The notes beneath the pieces were generated by a model. That model was not told the origin of the DNA. It saw only the letters and a program-made list of their open reading frames with translations, and did not search any database. A stretch of 64,000 nucleotides of DNA from Paludibacteraceae bacterium. GTDB taxonomy: Bacteria; Bacteroidota; Bacteroidia; Bacteroidales; Paludibacteraceae. Numbering within the stretch: position 1 is the first letter of the stretch; each line of letters opens with the position of its first letter. The position numbers and the translations under genes were made by a program. The stretch covers positions 1-64,000 of the forward strand of contig JAGBEJ010000011.1 in the NCBI GenBank assembly GCA_017937025.1, given 5' to 3'. Shown piece after piece: positions 16,238 to 24,042 of the stretch.

Positions 16238-16271
16238 TATGGGCTATGTGGTGCATTATTTCATCATTTGT

Positions 16272-16279
16272 TATATTTG
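16272..16279 (+). promoter_or_regulatory. -7 box of the FISUMP array transcript
   Basis: TATATTTG is a perfect TAnnTTTG box just after the pgi terminator. It shares an 11-base string (TATATTTGCAC) with the lysS -7 region. No clear TTG lies at -33. Transcription from here would give a leader of about 340 nt before the first FISUMP ATG. Confidence 0.5.
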
Positions 16280-16390
16280 CACATATATGGAATAAGAAAC
16301 AAACAACGAATCATATAAAGAAACAGAAAACAGTAAGATAGAAAAGACATATTGATAAAGCGTTTTAAGCTAAAATCTTGAGTTTGACTG

Positions 16391-16600
16391 AAATCTCGAC
16401 AATTTTAGTAACCACACCAAGAACAAAGCCAAAGACGCTCACGCTTCTCAGCGTGGGCTTTTGTTCGTATATATTTGGTGTGGTAAGGTAGTCGAGAACC
16501 TCAGTTACTCAAATAGAAGCGAGAAAGTTCCACGCTTTTCTTTTGTCTATAAACCAGCCAGCACAGGAACTTGCGGAGGCATCTGAAAATCCGTGAAAAG
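16391..16600 (+). ncRNA. Candidate structured leader RNA of the FISUMP array
   Basis: Three nested helices can be read directly: TCTCGAC (16394-16400) with GTCGAGA (16491-16497), CCACACCAA (16412-16420) with TTGGTGTGG (16475-16483), and GCTCACGCT (16437-16445) with AGCGTGGGC (16450-16458, one wobble). Downstream, AAGTTCC (16525-16531) can pair with GGAACTT (16566-16572) while CTTTTC (16535-16540) can pair with GAAAAG (16595-16600). These two would interleave as an H-type pseudoknot. The first FISUMP ATG follows 29 nt later. The fold and any control role are inferred; I cannot match it to a named RNA family. Confidence 0.55.
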
Positions 16601-16628
16601 AGTAGGGAAAAGAAAACTTTTAAGCGAT

Positions 16629-17477
16629 ATGAAAAAATTAGTCTATTTACTTATGTCACTTTCGTTTGTGGCATTTGTGTCATGCAATGACGACAAAGAA
16701 AATGAGCAGTCGGGATCTGGAAATGTCCCAGAAAACAGTTCTTCGGTTCTTTCTTCTTCTGGCAAGGAAAGAGGACATTCTTATGTTGACCTCGGATTGC
16801 CGTCAGGAACTCTTTGGGCAACTTGCAATGTTGGAGCAGCCACACCGCAAGATTATGGTAACCATTATGCTTGGGGCGAGGTAACCACAAAGGAAACCTA
16901 CGATTGGAGCACCTACAAGTATGGTAGCACAAGCAAACAACTGACCAAGTACTGCGATAATAGTGAGTATGGTAAAGATGGTTTCACTGATAACAAAATA
17001 ACTCTTGAACTTTCTGACGATGCGGCTTATGTGAACTGGGGCGGTAAGTGGCGCATGCCAACTCAAGCTCAGTTGTTAGAACTATGTGATGAATGCTACT
17101 GTGTATGGACTGAAAATTACAACAACTCAAACGTGAAGGGGTGCATTGTCTATAAAGCAAAAAAATCGAGCGACAAGGGAGAATCTGTAAACAAGAGTGA
17201 GACACCATCTCCATCTTACTCTTTGGCAGACACCCATATTTTTTTGCCTATTGCGGGCGTGTATGGTTTTCCACAGAGTTTAGAAGTTTACACTAACGTA
17301 AATGGCGGCGTATGGTCTTCTACGTTATCACTATCTAACGACATACAAGGTCCTTTCAGTGCGAAGTCTATGGGCTTTAATCACGTTGTTATGCCGCCGG
17401 TGGTGACAGGTCCGTACTTCGGCACCGACCGCTACTTCGGTCTATCGGTGCGTGCGGTGATTCCGGGAAATAAGTAA
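16629..17477 (+). CDS. FISUMP-domain surface lipoprotein, array copy 1
   Basis: A 282-residue lipoprotein. The signal peptide ends in the lipobox FVSC with Cys19, followed by NDDKEN, an acidic start like the Bacteroidota lipoprotein export signal, so surface exposure is likely. A Ser/Asn linker leads to one FISUMP (Fibrobacter succinogenes major paralogous) domain, residues 49-280: GHSYVDLGLPSGTLWATCNVGA, YAWGE, KDGFTDN, DDAAYVNWGGKWRMPT, then SVRAVIPG at the end. The family has a C-type-lectin/FGE-like look and no established function. The ATG at 16629 is chosen because it aligns with the starts of the paralogs; the 12 codons upstream lie in the leader. The segment 17259-17444 before SVRAVI differs strongly from the other copies, and its last 65 bp are more GC-rich than the gene body. 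Confidence 0.85.
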   Translation: MKKLVYLLMSLSFVAFVSCNDDKENEQSGSGNVPENSSSVLSSSGKERGHSYVDLGLPSGTLWATCNVGAATPQDYGNHYAWGEVTTKETYDWSTYKYGSTSKQLTKYCDNSEYGKDGFTDNKITLELSDDAAYVNWGGKWRMPTQAQLLELCDECYCVWTENYNNSNVKGCIVYKAKKSSDKGESVNKSETPSPSYSLADTHIFLPIAGVYGFPQSLEVYTNVNGGVWSSTLSLSNDIQGPFSAKSMGFNHVVMPPVVTGPYFGTDRYFGLSVRAVIPGNK

Positions 17478-17496
17478 AATTTAAAAACTGAATACT

Positions 17497-18315
17497 ATGA
17501 AAAAGATTATCTATTTACTTATGTCACTATCGTTTGTGGCATTTGTGTCGTGCAGTGACGACAAAGAAAATGAGCAGTCTGGATCTGGAAATGTCCCAGA
17601 AAACAGTTCTTCAGTTCTTTCTTCTTCTGGCAAGGAAAGAGGACATTCTTATGTTGACCTCGGCTTGCCATCAGGTACTCTTTGGGCGACTTGTAACGTT
17701 GGCGCAGCCACTCCGCAGGATTATGGCAACTACTACGCTTGGGGCGAGACCACAACAAAGGAAATAAACGATTGGGAATCTTACAAGTACGGCGCAGGTA
17801 CAAATTGGACAGAACCTCAAATCACAAAGTATTGTAGCTATAGCAAAGCAGGCAAGGATGGTTTCACGGATAATAAAACCATTCTCGACCCATCGGATGA
17901 TGCTGCATACATTAATTGGGGGGGCAAGTGGCGAGTGCCAAACAAAGCTCAGCAAGATGAACTTCGCAATGAATGTTACTGGGTTTGGACATCAGATTAC
18001 AATGGCTCAAAAGTGAGTGGTTACATAGTTTATCAGGCAAGAAATTCAAATCACAAGGGGATGAAAACATATGAGGATGGGACCCCATTCCCATCTTACA
18101 CTCTCGCTGATGCTCACATATTCTTGCCTGCTGCTGGTGGTACAGACCATGATGGTGTTGTTTGTTGGGTTGGTACTTCTGGTAACTATTGGGCAAATGA
18201 GACGGATGGTAGTTCTTGGGCTTTGGACATAACATTCACTGATGATGGCGTGACAACTATTGGTGGCATCCGTGGTGCAGCTCAGTCTGTGCGTGCTGTG
18301 ATTCCAGGTAAATGA
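17497..18315 (+). CDS. FISUMP-domain surface lipoprotein, array copy 2
   Basis: A 272-residue lipoprotein with lipobox FVSC at Cys19, then SDDKEN. Its first 70 residues are nearly identical to copy 1, and over 107 bp (17557-17663) only two bases differ from copy 1 (16689-16795), so the two 5' ends are a recent duplication or gene conversion. The FISUMP domain (49-270) keeps the scaffold motifs YVDLGLPSGTLWATCNVG, YAWGE, GGKWRVPNKAQQDELRNECYWVW and HIFLPAAG. The 49-residue segment between HIFLPAAG and SVRAVIPGK (18139-18285) has little similarity to copy 1. It lies 19 bp after copy 1 and is presumably on the same transcript. Confidence 0.85.
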   Translation: MKKIIYLLMSLSFVAFVSCSDDKENEQSGSGNVPENSSSVLSSSGKERGHSYVDLGLPSGTLWATCNVGAATPQDYGNYYAWGETTTKEINDWESYKYGAGTNWTEPQITKYCSYSKAGKDGFTDNKTILDPSDDAAYINWGGKWRVPNKAQQDELRNECYWVWTSDYNGSKVSGYIVYQARNSNHKGMKTYEDGTPFPSYTLADAHIFLPAAGGTDHDGVVCWVGTSGNYWANETDGSSWALDITFTDDGVTTIGGIRGAAQSVRAVIPGK

Positions 18316-18347
18316 AACCGTAACTATTAACTTCAAAAATAGATTCT

Positions 18348-19238
18348 ATGAAAAGGATATATTTTCTCGCAGTGTATTGTTTGGCTCTTGGCTTTGTGTC
18401 ATGCAATGACGACAAGGACAATCCTGTTGCTAATGAGAATACGCAAACCAATAATAGTGTGAATACAGAAGGCAATGTGGACGGCTTTAAGATTACAGAT
18501 GGAAGTATTTCTGCAGTTTCACTTTATAAAGACGGAACGATGGATGGACATGACTATGTTGATTTAGGATTGCCTTCTGGTACTCTTTGGGCTACTGCAA
18601 ATATTGGTGCTTCGGCTCCTTATATCTATGGCAATTACTATGCTTGGGGCGAGGTGACTCCACAGTCATATGAATATTATTGGGATACTTATAAATATGG
18701 TTATGGCTCAGGTGGTCGTGATTATTTGAAATATAAAAAATATTGCATTGAAAATTCAGACGGAATAGTTGACAACAAGACTATTCTTGATCCAGAAGAT
18801 GATGCAGCTCATGTGAATTGGGGCGGAAGATGGAAAATGCCGACCACAGAGCAACAGAAAGAACTTTGTGAACAATGCTATTGGGTGTGGACAGAAAATT
18901 ATAATAACTCTTATACTGGCGGCTATATTATATATAAGGTGAAGAATAGCGCAGACAAAGGAGAAGTAATAAGTAAATATAAAATAGGAAAAGGTGTTAT
19001 GCCTTCATCAGTTTATTCTCTTTCTGACGTACATATTTTCTTACCAGCAACAGGCTATGTTGGTGCGGGCAGTTTCTGTGATGTAGAGAGATATGGTTAT
19101 TACTGGTCTTCTTCATTGCATGTAAGTTATTCAAGTAAGGCGCAATGCTTGGTGGGCGATTCTTATTTAGGGTTATCTGCAACTGGTGGAAGCGCTCGTT
19201 ATGTTGGTTTGTCAGTTCGTGCCGTTATTTCAGAATAG
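18348..19238 (+). CDS. FISUMP-domain surface lipoprotein, array copy 3
   Basis: A 296-residue lipoprotein with lipobox FVSC (Cys19) followed by NDDKDN, again an acidic post-Cys segment. A longer Asn/Thr-rich spacer (about 20-60) precedes the FISUMP domain, which starts GHDYVDLGLPSGTLWATANIGA and ends SVRAVISE. This is the most AT-rich and most diverged member, with TCNVGA changed to TANIGA. The variable segment 19056-19211 contains GYYWSSSLHVSYSSKAQ. It is placed 32 bp after copy 2. Confidence 0.83.
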   Translation: MKRIYFLAVYCLALGFVSCNDDKDNPVANENTQTNNSVNTEGNVDGFKITDGSISAVSLYKDGTMDGHDYVDLGLPSGTLWATANIGASAPYIYGNYYAWGEVTPQSYEYYWDTYKYGYGSGGRDYLKYKKYCIENSDGIVDNKTILDPEDDAAHVNWGGRWKMPTTEQQKELCEQCYWVWTENYNNSYTGGYIIYKVKNSADKGEVISKYKIGKGVMPSSVYSLSDVHIFLPATGYVGAGSFCDVERYGYYWSSSLHVSYSSKAQCLVGDSYLGLSATGGSARYVGLSVRAVISE

Positions 19239-19259
19239 AAAACATAAAATTTAGGAACT

Positions 19260-20813
19260 ATGAAAAAAATAATCTATTTACTTGTGTCACTTTTGTTTGT
19301 GACATTAGTGGCGTGTGAAGATAAGGAAAGTTCTTCATCAAATGGAGGCTTTCCAGTTTATACATCAGGCACAGAGAATGGTCACGACTATGTTGACCTT
19401 GGTTTGCCATCTGGTACGTTATGGGCAACTTGCAACGTGGGTGCAGCTGCTCCGCAGGATTATGGTAACTACTACGCTTGGGGCGAGACAACGACAAAGG
19501 ATTCTTACGAATGGGGCAACTACAAATTTGGTAGTCGTAACGATGGTAATACTCTGTTAACAAAATATTGCTTTGACAGTGAATATGGCAAAGATGGTTT
19601 CTGTGACAACAAAACCGTTCTTGACCTTGAAGATGATGCTGCCAACGTGAATTGGGGTGGAAGATGGACAATGCCAACAAAGGCTCAGCAAGATGAACTT
19701 CGCGCTCACTGCTATTGGGTGTGGACAGAGAACTACAATAATTCAAAAGTTGCAGGTTTTATTGTTTACAAAGCTAAAGCATCCCGTGATAAGGGCATAT
19801 ATAATGGGCAGACTCCATCAGCATCCTATTCTCTCGAAGATGCTCATATATTCTTACCAGCTGCTGGCGTTCATAGTGGACATGATTTCTATATGAGAGG
19901 AACTTATGGTCTTTATTCATCTTCGTCTCTACTGACTGAATATTATTCAAATATAGCGTGGTATATGGCATTTTATCAAGTTTATGTTGGATATGAAATA
20001 GCAATTGGTGGTTTCCGTTCAGATGGTCAGTCTGTGCGCGCAGTGATTAGCAAAAATGGTGGTGGCAGTGACTCAAATGGCAACAATAGTGGTGATAATG
20101 GCAGCAACGATTCTGATGTAAGTCAGCTTGTCGGTGGTACAGAGGTTGGCTATGATTATGTTGACCTTGGCTTGACTTCTGGTACAATGTGGGCTACATG
20201 TAATGTTGGAGCGTCGAAGCCTGAGGAATATGGTAACTATTATGCTTGGGGTGAGACTATAACAAAAGGATATTACGATTGGAGTACCTACAAGTACGGC
20301 AGTGTATCCAACCAGTTGACCAAGTATTGCAGCAGATCTGATTACGGCAAAGACGGCTTCACCGACAGTAAGACCACTCTCGACCTCCCAGACGACGCTG
20401 CCTACGTCAACTGGAGTGGCAAGTGGAGAATGCCGACCAAGGCACAGCAAGATGAACTTCGCAACGAGTGCTATTGGGTGTGGACAGAAAACTACAATAG
20501 CTCAGGTGTAAAAGGTTACATCATCTATAAGGCAAAGAGCTCAAGCGACATGGGAAAGCATGTATATAAAGGACAAACTCCGTCCTTGTCTTATACCATC
20601 TCTGACGCCCACATTTTTCTGCCTGCTGCGGGCGATCGCTACTGTGGTAATCTCTACAACGCCGGAGCTTGGGGCTATTATTGGTCCTCGTCGCTGGATG
20701 CCACCGCTCAGATTGGCGCGTTGCTCGTCAACTTTCGTTCAGACGATGTGGGCTGCTACTTTGACACCCGCTGTAATGGTAAATCTGTTCGCGCGGTAAT
20801 TCCCGGAAATTAA
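19260..20813 (+). CDS. Two-domain FISUMP surface lipoprotein, array copy 4
   Basis: A 517-residue lipoprotein (lipobox LVAC at Cys19, then EDKES) with two tandem FISUMP domains. Domain A spans about residues 38-262, from GHDYVDLGLPSGTLW to SVRAVISK. Domain B spans about 297-516, from GYDYVDLGLTSGTMW to SVRAVIPGN. They are joined by a Gly/Ser/Asn/Asp linker of about 30 residues (264-292). It looks like a fusion of two array units. Domain B is closer to copy 5 than to domain A: 81 of 84 bases match between 20331-20414 here and 21721-21804 there. The variable end of domain B, 20634-20783, is GC-rich relative to the gene body. It begins 21 bp after copy 3. Confidence 0.84.
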   Translation: MKKIIYLLVSLLFVTLVACEDKESSSSNGGFPVYTSGTENGHDYVDLGLPSGTLWATCNVGAAAPQDYGNYYAWGETTTKDSYEWGNYKFGSRNDGNTLLTKYCFDSEYGKDGFCDNKTVLDLEDDAANVNWGGRWTMPTKAQQDELRAHCYWVWTENYNNSKVAGFIVYKAKASRDKGIYNGQTPSASYSLEDAHIFLPAAGVHSGHDFYMRGTYGLYSSSSLLTEYYSNIAWYMAFYQVYVGYEIAIGGFRSDGQSVRAVISKNGGGSDSNGNNSGDNGSNDSDVSQLVGGTEVGYDYVDLGLTSGTMWATCNVGASKPEEYGNYYAWGETITKGYYDWSTYKYGSVSNQLTKYCSRSDYGKDGFTDSKTTLDLPDDAAYVNWSGKWRMPTKAQQDELRNECYWVWTENYNSSGVKGYIIYKAKSSSDMGKHVYKGQTPSLSYTISDAHIFLPAAGDRYCGNLYNAGAWGYYWSSSLDATAQIGALLVNFRSDDVGCYFDTRCNGKSVRAVIPGN

Positions 20814-20859
20814 ATGAACGTTTTTGATGTTGTATAACTTATCATAAATAGGAATAGCT

Positions 20860-21330
20860 ATGAAAAGGCTCTTTTATTTAGTGTCATTACTTGCAATGCA
20901 ATTTGTATTTACATCAAGTATTATAGTTGAGGCTTTGGATGGTACATCGCAAGTCTATGATATGGAGAATGTAAATAAACTCGACTTTACAAATTATGGA
21001 AATTTGAAGGTGGTAAAAACCGACGGCACATCCGACACCAAAGCCATAAGCGCGACACGCAAGGTCGTGTTCTCGGATGAGGATGCACCATCTACTGCCA
21101 TAGCGGAATCATCATCGGCATCTTCGCTCAAGGTTTATCCAAACCCGGCGAAGAATGAGATAATAGTAGAAGGTGCAAATAGTGATATATTCATTTTCTC
21201 GGCAAATGGAAATCTTATTTCAAGAATCAATGCAGAAGATAAGGTTGTCGTAAATGTATCTTCGTTTACTGATGGTGTTTATATTCTTCGTAGCGGTGAT
21301 TCTGCTGTGCGTATTATCAAATCCAAGTAA
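20860..21330 (+). CDS. Small secreted protein with T9SS type A sorting domain
   Basis: A 156-residue protein. A signal peptide (about 1-20) is followed by a short module with the pattern QVYDMENVNKLDF, then a C-terminal type A T9SS sorting domain of about 70 residues, from SLKVYPNPAKNEIIVEG to GVYILRSGDSAVRIIKSK. VYPNPA and the closing Lys-rich strand are classic for the family. Such domains direct passage through the T9SS outer-membrane channel and surface attachment. There is almost no cargo, so the mature product would be little more than the sorting domain and a small head. Copy 5 has a similar head (VVYKIDDGIADSITF). It sits inside the FISUMP array with 46 and 21 bp gaps. Confidence 0.8.
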   Translation: MKRLFYLVSLLAMQFVFTSSIIVEALDGTSQVYDMENVNKLDFTNYGNLKVVKTDGTSDTKAISATRKVVFSDEDAPSTAIAESSSASSLKVYPNPAKNEIIVEGANSDIFIFSANGNLISRINAEDKVVVNVSSFTDGVYILRSGDSAVRIIKSK

Positions 21331-21351
21331 CAAATTAAAAATCTATAGATT

Positions 21352-22209
21352 ATGAAAAAAATATTATTTACACTCGCGGCAACACTTACAAGTATTTGGG
21401 CAATGTCGCAGTTTTATGTTTGCAAAAACGGCGCAGTCGTTTATAAAATAGATGACGGTATTGCAGACTCAATAACATTTGCAAAACCAAGTTTTAGTGA
21501 AGAAATAGTAGATGTTTATTATGACGGTGTTGAGAATGGACATTATTATGTTGACCTCGGCTTAACTTCTGGCACAAAGTGGGCGACTTGCAACGTTGGT
21601 GCATCAAAGCCAGAGAAATATGGCGATTACTATGCTTGGGGTGAGACTTCCACAAAGGTAACCTACAGCTGGAGAACCTATAAGTATGGCAGCGGTGATC
21701 ACGAACTGATCAAGTACTGCAGCAGATCTGATTGCGGCAAAGACGGCTTCACCGACAGCAAGACCACTCTCGACCTCTCAGACGACGCTGCCTACGTCAA
21801 CTGGGGCGGCGCGTGGCGTATGCCAACTAAGGCTCAGCAAGACGAACTCTTAGGCGAATGCTACTGGGTGTGGACAGAAAATTATAATAACTCAAAGGTA
21901 AAGGGATGTATAGTCTATAAAGCAAAGAACTCAAGCGACAAGGGAGTGAAGATATACTATGAGGGGACTCCATCCTCATCCTACAAACTCTCTGATGCCC
22001 ATATTTTTCTGCCTGCTGCGGGCGAACGCTATGGTGGCGGCCTCGACGGCGGCGTCGGAGCTGACGGGCGTTATTTGTCCTCGTCGATTTATGTCGGCTA
22101 TCCGGGCCTCGTGTGGATTGTCCAATGCAATTCAGACTATATGGATAGCAACTACGGCGGCAACCGCGACAGCGGTCTGTCGGTGCGTGCGGTGATTCCG
22201 GGGGAGTAA
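21352..22209 (+). CDS. FISUMP-domain secreted protein, array copy 5
   Basis: A 285-residue exported protein. Unlike copies 1-4, its signal peptide (ILFTLAATLTSIWAMSQ) has no lipobox, so it is probably soluble or held in another way. A head module of about 40 residues resembles that of the preceding T9SS protein. The FISUMP domain runs from GHYYVDLGLTSGTKWATCNVGA to SVRAVIPGE. The variable segment 22024-22179 is very GC-rich (many GGC and GAC codons), with a sharp change at the HIFLPAAG motif. It ends 26 bp before the metallo-beta-lactamase gene, with no terminator between, so the two are probably cotranscribed. Confidence 0.83.
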   Translation: MKKILFTLAATLTSIWAMSQFYVCKNGAVVYKIDDGIADSITFAKPSFSEEIVDVYYDGVENGHYYVDLGLTSGTKWATCNVGASKPEKYGDYYAWGETSTKVTYSWRTYKYGSGDHELIKYCSRSDCGKDGFTDSKTTLDLSDDAAYVNWGGAWRMPTKAQQDELLGECYWVWTENYNNSKVKGCIVYKAKNSSDKGVKIYYEGTPSSSYKLSDAHIFLPAAGERYGGGLDGGVGADGRYLSSSIYVGYPGLVWIVQCNSDYMDSNYGGNRDSGLSVRAVIPGE

Positions 22210-22235
22210 AAAAGCGAAAATAAATCGTTTGATAT

Positions 22236-23408
22236 ATGAAAATGAAAGTAACGAGAACTTTGCACTCGATAGGTCAGGGCGCTTTTTATACGGAGAAATT
22301 TGAATATGAAGGTCAACAGTGCAATGTGGTGTTTGATTGTGGAGGAACGTCTTCTGTTATAAAAGGAAGAGTAAAAAAATATTGTAGTGATAAAGGAGCA
22401 GAAAAGCCAACAATAGATGCAGTATTCATCTCTCATTTTGATAATGATCATGTGAATGGACTTGAGACTTTGTTTCGTCATGCAGAAGTAAAGCGTATTT
22501 TCTTGCCTTTATTGGATGATGATGAGGTTTATGCTCTTTCATTGTCTTTTGTTGAAAAACTTGGTGAACCCATATATCGTGGACTTGTTGACTCTGCTGT
22601 TAATGGAGAACCTTTAAAAGTGGGCAACGAGATGCCAGAAATTGATGTCGTTAGAATAGACAAGTATAAAAGTGGCGGAAATTCAGCTGAGCAGCCATAT
22701 TTTTTGCATACTGGGCAGGATGAACAAACTAATTCTCGAAAAGAAATTCATAGTGGAACATCTGTAAAGCTGAATAATTCCACTCCTTGGATTTTTAAGA
22801 CATTCAATTTCGAAAATGCAGAAGGGAAAAGGGAAAAACAACTGAAAAAAGCGTTGGAGAAAAAAAGGATTACTTCTTTGACAATAACGGAACTTATTGG
22901 TAGATGGAATGAACAACAATTTCGTGATGATATTCTTGAGTGTTATAAATCAGTATCTGGCAGTTTGAATACTAATTCGATGGTTACTTATTCAGGTCCA
23001 GAAAAAGGAACAATTAAGGTATTTCATAATAATAGTTGGTTGTCACGTTCTTTGGAGTGGAGGAATCTTTGCCGTTATGTTTTTGTGAACAATTTGGCTG
23101 GCTGTATGTACTTTGGAGATTATGAGGCTAAAGGTGGTCTTAAGTGGAAACAATATAAAGATAGCTTTAAATCTTTGATTTCGTTGTTGCACGTTCAACA
23201 AGTTCCTCATCATGGTGCAGCATCTAATTATAATGTTCAGTTGAATAAGCCTCCAAAATTGAATTTTATTTCGGCTGGAATTAGTAATACGTATAGACAT
23301 CCAAGTTTGTGGACTCTCTATGTATTGAATAGTTATCGTGTTCCATGGATATGGATATCAGAAGATTCAGAACGTGTTGTTTTTGAGTATGATGTAAGTG
23401 AGAGTTGA
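22236..23408 (+). CDS. ComEC-like metallo-beta-lactamase-fold hydrolase
   Basis: A 390-residue cytosolic protein with no signal peptide. The metal-binding motif is HFDNDH at 67-72, the HxDxDH form seen in ComEC/Rec2-type MBL domains. It is preceded by VVFDCGG and the strand DAVFIS, and followed by FGDYE and VPHHGA near residue 318. About 130 residues are inserted between the first metal motif and the GDYE part. Proteins of this group hydrolyse phosphodiester or similar bonds, often on nucleic acid. The substrate here is unknown, and the membrane part of ComEC is absent. Codons are AT-rich compared with flanking core genes, in keeping with an accessory gene. Two nearby ATG codons (22236, 22242) are possible starts. 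Confidence 0.75.
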   Translation: MKMKVTRTLHSIGQGAFYTEKFEYEGQQCNVVFDCGGTSSVIKGRVKKYCSDKGAEKPTIDAVFISHFDNDHVNGLETLFRHAEVKRIFLPLLDDDEVYALSLSFVEKLGEPIYRGLVDSAVNGEPLKVGNEMPEIDVVRIDKYKSGGNSAEQPYFLHTGQDEQTNSRKEIHSGTSVKLNNSTPWIFKTFNFENAEGKREKQLKKALEKKRITSLTITELIGRWNEQQFRDDILECYKSVSGSLNTNSMVTYSGPEKGTIKVFHNNSWLSRSLEWRNLCRYVFVNNLAGCMYFGDYEAKGGLKWKQYKDSFKSLISLLHVQQVPHHGAASNYNVQLNKPPKLNFISAGISNTYRHPSLWTLYVLNSYRVPWIWISEDSERVVFEYDVSES

Positions 23409-24042
23409 GTTTTGGTTCGGTCAATGCGGTTCGACAGACTTATCAACCAAGCGGAGTTGAAGCACTGGTGTATAAAATAGGAATGCCGCATTTCGGCTGT
23501 CGCTCAATAACCGGCATGATTTATATATTCTGCACGCTGTGGTTCGGCAGGCTCACCAACCAAGCGCAATGTAATGAGAATATATTTGGTGTGTCGTAGG
23601 GGCGAATAATTATTCGCCCCTACATAATATGTAAGGAATTTGTTGATCCTATGTGGTTTAGGCGGAGCATGCTCCGTCTCTACGGTTTTTATTGATTCCG
23701 GCGCTTTGGCTTGGTTCGGCTACGCTCACCAACCAACGCTCAGCGACCGAAATGCTCAGTGACCGGATGAGAGTCGCTTCGCGAGAAATAGGACAAATAA
23801 CAACAAATCCAACAGAATATTATTTGAAAGATTTGATTCCTATAATGGGAATCGAAGAAATATTCATGGGTGTGTGTAGGGGCGAATAATTATTCGCCCC
23901 TACATAATATGTGGAATTTGTTGATTCTGTGGGTGTTAGACGGAGCGTGCTCCGTCTCTACGGTTTTTATTGATTCCGGCTTTGGCTTGGTTCGGCTACG
24001 CTCACCAACCAACGCTCAGCGACCAAATACTCAGCGACCGGT
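23409..24042. repeat. REP-like palindromic repeat block
   Basis: No gene is seen in this 630-bp stretch. Two direct copies of a unit of roughly 165 bp lie at about 23596-23764 and 23876-24040. Each begins with a perfect 28-bp palindrome (23596-23623 and 23876-23903, core GGGGCGAATAATTATTCGCC). A second palindrome follows (23661-23678 and 23939-23956, GACGGAGC/GCTCCGTC type), then the shared string CTCTACGGTTTTTATTGATT, and then GGTTCGGCTACGCTCACCAA followed by CTCAGCGACC. Degenerate versions of the last motif occur near 23410-23465 and 23539-23575. The layout is that of REP/BIME-type or miniature mobile repeats rather than CRISPR. Confidence 0.75.

Follow-up and report, generated by a model that had tools for sequence, protein, structure and literature searches.

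The window analyzed here comprises the 64,000 nucleotides at positions 1 to 64,000 of contig JAGBEJ010000011.1, which belongs to the genome of a Paludibacteraceae bacterium (GCA_017937025.1, hereafter G000). On its plus strand, positions 16629 to 23408 hold five genes carrying six copies of one domain, together with a gene for a protein with a T9SS sorting tail and a gene for an MBL-fold hydrolase, and the intergenic gaps within this array all measure 19 to 46 bp (Table 1). The same layout, with the T9SS-tail gene lying between domain copies and the MBL gene following the last of them, had been described in an earlier note on this DNA and was found in full, the sorting tail of the 156-aa protein (P0005) being matched above the cutoff (Por_Secre_tail, 1.2e-9). 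This sorting domain occurs in P0005 only and is absent from the array domain proteins. As read from the sequence, genes 1 to 4 carry lipoprotein signals and gene 5 carries an ordinary signal peptide without a lipobox, which agrees with the surface repertoire that the earlier note had proposed.

The single upstream -7 box and the lack of an internal terminator that had been claimed were also borne out. The box, of the Bacteroidetes type, is the sole candidate start noted for the array and is kept in the congener G004 despite only ~65% identity of the flanking DNA there, while terminator-like sites within the array stretch occur at chance level. The array is probably transcribed as one unit from one promoter. 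A sigma-70 promoter scan gave scores just modestly over the shuffled mean and concerned the wrong promoter type. For gene 1, ATG 16629 is the more likely start than the open frame from 16593, since the latter overlaps the Rfam RNA (16573 to 16608). On the 3′ side of the MBL gene, a 29-nt perfect inverted repeat (23596 to 23903, with 250 nt between the arms) lies amid repeated intergenic sequence.

TABLE 1 Features of the array and its leader in the window
Feature	Positions	Strand	Evidence or remark
-7 box, Bacteroidetes type, TATATTTGC	16272..16280	+	Sequence
Structured 5′ leader of array, about 290 nt	16340..16628	+	Fold z-score -4.8; 11 genome copies (DNA search)
Long-hairpin arm of leader, model R1, absent from Rfam	16373..16516	+	144.7 bits
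DUF805b cis-regulatory RNA motif (RF02914), 3′ side of leader	16573..16608	+	40.1 bits (gathering cutoff, 35.6)
Gene 1, lipoprotein, one Lcl_C/FISUMP-superfamily domain	16629..17477	+	Variable end 17235-17459, drifted type
Gene 2, lipoprotein, one domain	17497..18315	+	Variable end 18115-18300, drifted type
Gene 3, lipoprotein, one domain	18348..19238	+	Variable end 19032-19226, drifted type
Gene 4, lipoprotein, two domains	19260..20813	+	First variable end 19845-20045, drifted type
Gene 4, end of domain 2, variable-repeat type	20610..20798	+	Carries anchor TATTGGTCCTCGTCGCTG
156-aa protein, T9SS type A sorting tail	20860..21330	+	Upstream member of recurrent two-gene unit
Gene 5, exported domain protein without lipobox	21352..22209	+	Downstream member of two-gene unit
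Gene 5 end, variable-repeat type	22000..22194	+	End comparison
MBL-fold hydrolase, ComEC-type motifs (HFDNDH, PHHGA)	22236..23408	+	Codirectional neighbor

In both G000 and G004, the array lies directly downstream of lysS-gpsA-pgi. Another gene follows pgi in the congener G001 (pgi protein 98% identical), and a HAD gene does so in G002 and G005, indicating gain or loss of the array within a conserved neighborhood. The array of G004 comprises three family genes (four domains), without a T9SS-tail gene, followed by an MBL gene that is truncated where the contig ends. Congeners differ in the array and in how many copies it holds, and the fixed order FISUMP(n)-T9SS tail-FISUMP-MBL was not found conserved in the genomes searched. 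The T9SS-tail gene, once taken as part of the array, instead forms a two-gene unit with a following family gene, the latter mostly with an FYVYKNG-type start; this unit occurs at four places in G000 (the window, C13, C11, and C10), three of them away from the array, and G004 and G001 have it as well. In a genome of another genus (G033; L177:5597-11591), the corresponding place after lysS-gpsA and a pgi-like gene is occupied by a family gene to which a T9SS-like tail is fused.

The domains had been labeled FISUMP (Fibrobacter succinogenes major paralogous domain). The five same-strand genes and six domains of that claim stand, but no window protein is recognized by the curated models: PF09603 (FISUMP, Pfam) and TIGR02145 (NCBIfam) gave zero matches in P0001-P0006 up to an E value of 1, and a PF09603 profile search of G000 likewise gave 0 matches. 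Among the 63 aligned relatives, collected from 80 loci, TIGR02145 was matched by 20 (best, 6e-6) and Lcl_C/DUF1566 (PF07603) by 47 (best, 3.6e-10). The full window proteins had no match to Lcl_C, and 7 of the 20 genomic family members matched it weakly (best, 7e-4). These profile matches tie the family to Lcl_C and, more weakly, to FISUMP, a name best used as a superfamily-level label only. With FISUMP, the family shares paralogous expansion and the YWSSS and SVR motifs; with the Lcl C-terminal domain of Legionella, it shares distant sequence similarity, via relatives, and an exported, adhesin-type domain, whereas the window proteins have no collagen stalk and fall below the Lcl_C model. The characterized Lcl_C member, Lcl-CTD, has been described as C-type-lectin-like and glycosaminoglycan-binding (PMC11162425), and ligand binding by the proteins described here is a prediction. 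Genome-wide, the family has 22 matches in G000, spread over many contigs, and its copy number in other Bacteroidales ranges from none to 63. Tandem copies as such are common, since tandem genes or multidomain proteins were present at 42 of the 80 loci. One divergent member (L176:1313-2305, G000 C8) is extended at its C terminus by a long segment resembling a SPOR domain.

The AlphaFold2 model of gene 5 is confident (mean pLDDT, 86.3), and its variable end consists of ordered beta-strands (pLDDT of about 86 to 97) in which variable and invariant positions alternate; the disorder that had been raised as a possible objection is not seen. Among viral models, the best structural match was a phage FISUMP protein (E value, 1.8e-3). 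The best PDB structural match, 4EPS, was not significant (E value, 0.33), and C-type lectins had E values of 2 or worse; a PDB search by sequence yielded nothing useful. The 4EPS structure has been reported as similar to TvpA (PMC4159848). The domain probably adopts a C-type-lectin-like fold and binds its ligands through the C-terminal 50 to 60 residues.

Between the -7 box and gene 1 lies a structured leader, of which a DNA search detected 11 copies in G000 and a model search 17. Its arm of about 140 nt forms one long hairpin in 11/11 sequences checked. Across 72 distinct arm sequences, 95.8% of cells pair, and both sides changed in 33 of the 37 pairs. Covariation scored 0.666 (shuffles, 0.213; slid controls, about 0.1). 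These figures lean toward the model, to which the arm alignment was fitted. The leader was present in 36 of 61 Bacteroidales genomes, with up to 30 copies per genome. About 60 of the 72 leaders precede a gene with a crude signal-peptide/lipobox call, and 10 precede family genes. A randomly inserted repeat is disfavored, considering that among leaders with flanks on both sides exported open reading frames occurred downstream in 23/29 cases and on the mirrored side in 9/29. In other genomes, four leaders (L293, L295, L297, and L301) stand before genes that read as short, nonexported LytTR-type proteins. The leader resembles the DUF805b RNA (RF02914) in a 35-nt match over the cutoff directly upstream of gene 1, and it differs in that Rfam 15 holds this 3′ part only, the preceding 140-nt hairpin arm being absent. 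It would act as a cis-regulatory RNA.

As the earlier note had stated, the scaffold motifs are kept and the end between HIFLP and SVRAVI is the most variable part of the domain, with a mean column entropy over 20 copies of 2.28 bits in the end versus 1.30 in the core. The divergence of these ends is far beyond the genome background, as judged by comparing the array locus with that of one congener, G004. The DNA of lysS, gpsA, and pgi is 94 to 96% identical between the two genomes (pgi, 95.6%), and that of the leader is 93 to 100% identical in most 60-bp windows, while the identity of array gene 1 is 75% in the core, falls to 43.5% in the end, and returns to 80% at SVRAVI. Such strong end divergence is not general to the family, because three dispersed orthologous copies retain 87 to 97% identity in the core and 95 to 98% in the end. 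A surface repertoire with truly diversified ends is supported.

Nine copies in G000 have a recognizable end type, two of them in the array (the second domain of gene 4 and the domain of gene 5) and the other seven dispersed. Among them, median dN and dS (NG86) were 0.41 and 0.47 in the end versus 0.25 and 1.46 in the core, where values are near saturation, and dN exceeded dS in 15 of 36 pairs for the end and in 0 pairs for the core; eight other, drifted copies showed ordinary dN/dS ratios. The ends thus appear younger than the cores at silent sites yet more divergent as proteins, as would be expected from template copying combined with adenine mutagenesis. The differences in variable-type ends mainly affect the first two positions of NNC/NNT codons. 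At positions 1 and 2 in 18 variable-type copies, 50 of 60 A-containing columns vary versus 5 of 66 others, a test that is partly circular in that variable columns are likelier to contain A. Third codon positions in the same copies vary at 17/63 sites in the end versus 108/150 in the core. The drifted copies vary at 44 of 45 template-A sites, yet at 38 of 77 other sites too, so tolerated surface positions explain part of the adenine signal.

The same segment is the target of intact diversity-generating retroelements (DGRs) elsewhere. Family members are DGR targets in two viral contigs from IMG/VR (L401 and L404) and two Bacteroidales MAG contigs (L075 and L138); the four templates span exactly FLP to SVR, i.e., the variable end of the family, and 86 to 96% of the mismatches lie at template adenines (24 of 25 in L401). 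A reverse transcriptase (RT) gene follows in L401 (RVT_1, 7.5e-14), L075, and L138, and in L404 it is visible in part only. Before these homologous DGRs were found, a template had been inferred from the family in the window, HIFLPAAGNRNNGNLNNAGSNGNYWSSSLNTNNPNNAWNINFNS..RNNGQSVRAV (also written HIFLPAAGNRNNGNLNNAG..NNGQSVRAV), and it closely resembles the templates later found in L138 and L075. A profile scan of viral contigs for the family returned 79 loci, and a single-sequence scan returned nothing. On another IMG/VR contig (L380:12518-16594), an RT accompanies two template/variable repeat pairs in which every mismatch (17 in one, 26 in the other) is at a template adenine, and a family gene on this contig is the target of neither pair. 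In a roe-deer rumen MAG (L075:3256-7702), the target of an apparently complete DGR is a protein kinase fused to the family domain; further kinase-like and phosphatase-like genes adjoin it, resembling published DGR-diversified sensor systems.

DUF1566 (Lcl_C) and Fib_succ_major domains are published DGR targets, and variable proteins with these domains occur in Bacteroides phages and human microbiomes (PMC4159848, PMC6642488, PMC8143477). The proteins described here resemble them in domain superfamily, in the C-terminal variable segment, in being lipoproteins in some cases, and, for the nine copies, in the adenine-type substitution pattern. They differ in that the genome and five congeners hold no RT or template and in that the targets comprise, besides dispersed copies, a tandem array that follows a leader RNA. 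Searches with RVT_1 and the L401 RT query detected no reverse transcriptase in G000 (99.96% complete) or four congeners, and a cis-encoded DGR in G000 was rejected on this result. One weak match in the fifth congener (L364) reads as another kind of RT rather than a DGR enzyme. The RT search was positive in more distant relatives, several RTs having A-biased, DGR-like repeat pairs. No free-standing template was found in G000 or the five congeners, the anchor occurring inside family genes only; the adenine-directed signature, strong in the nine copies, is therefore indirect.

We consider it fairly probable that the array is a tandem surface-protein family behind a structured leader RNA, the ends of which were made by a DGR now lost or lying outside the assemblies. 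The genes would be read from one promoter behind a regulatory leader, and each protein would present a ligand-binding C-terminal end; reverse transcription of the template RNA would have put random bases at adenines, and the product would have replaced the gene end. The footprint would survive in the nine copies named above, of which two belong to the array; the other four array ends would be older and drifted, and the remaining diversity would stem from duplication and exchange between copies. A lost element, or an external one (e.g., on a phage or plasmid), is proposed because RT and template are missing from G000 and the five congeners. Neither the leader nor the DGR-type nature of the ends figured in the earlier note. 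A wider proposal, in which an off-chromosome DGR still rewrites a dispersed lectin-like repertoire in the genus and the array also belongs to a Bacteroidales-wide set of surface genes controlled by the leader RNA, is possible but doubtful.

That no retroelement was ever involved, with duplication, gene conversion at conserved flanking motifs, and diversifying selection on exposed residues having shaped the ends, seems to us rather unlikely. The lack of RT and template in the six genomes agrees with it, as do the differences in the array and its copy number between congeners and a mosaicism in which exact tracts are common to copies, e.g., 139/140 bp between gene 2 and the first copy of the congener. 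Gene conversion plus strong selection could moreover yield the same dS/dN pattern, and the A-column test alone does not separate it from a DGR since template adenines fall on tolerant surface positions. Against it stand an end dS one third of the core dS with higher dN and kept third positions, the homologous proteins that are demonstrable DGR targets over exactly the same segment, and the inferred template, which predicted real ones.

A DGR active at present in trans, on a phage, plasmid, or unassembled element, and rewriting all template-matching copies, two of them in the array, is in our view unlikely. At one locus with the same flanks in G000 and G004 (C6/C160), the end dN of 0.27 exceeds the dS of 0.10, which would mean that rewriting continued after the species split, and multitarget DGRs have been published (PMC6642488). 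However, the anchor pattern had three matches in IMG/VR, none apparently in a family gene and none with a matching template, and no congener assembly contains a DGR-type RT.

It is improbable that the array and the MBL gene form a conflict or defense cassette in which variable lectins sense and the hydrolase is the effector. The MBL protein matches Lactamase_B (5.9e-7) and, in addition, LmuA (3e-10) and other defense-type MBL models. Its description as a ComEC-like hydrolase was correct in that it resembles the hydrolase part of ComEC/Rec2 (1.3e-7), but at 30 bits against a cutoff of 190 this 390-aa single-domain protein is not the membrane competence protein; it is a stand-alone MBL protein nearer the defense-type models, with ComEC-type motifs. 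The MBL gene also follows the array in G004, a family domain is fused to a kinase in L075, and DGR-diversified sensor systems have been published (PMC10907252). Nevertheless, MBL homologues occur in 7 of 101 genomes searched (G000 included), mostly away from the family in unrelated surroundings, and the array proteins are exported while the MBL protein lacks a signal peptide. Occurrence side by side in just two genomes does not suffice for a functional claim, and the proposed role as array partner is not upheld. Elsewhere, an MBL homologue is clustered with phosphoesterase-like and Hsp90-like ATPase genes in what looks like a defense island (G012; L144:1-9000), and in G029 (C13; L289 and L146) a leader RNA, a small HTH gene, a truncated window-like MBL gene, and a family-end fragment stand in a row.

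Functionally neutral, merely drifting ends are very improbable: four array ends do resemble ordinary divergence, but the dispersed orthologues keep their ends at near identity in the same two genomes, variable and invariant positions alternate in ordered beta-structure, and the 15 of 36 pairs with end dN above dS already disfavor this view.

The leader, with its strong covariation and a main arm new to Rfam, is a candidate for a cis-regulatory RNA class among Bacteroidales from the gut and rumen. Moreover, with past or external DGR action as the proposed cause, the variable ends of FISUMP/Lcl_C-like paralogous families are given a mechanism that can be tested, and DGR-type footprints without the machinery raise the question of whether rewriting has ended, comes from outside, or has given way to recombination.
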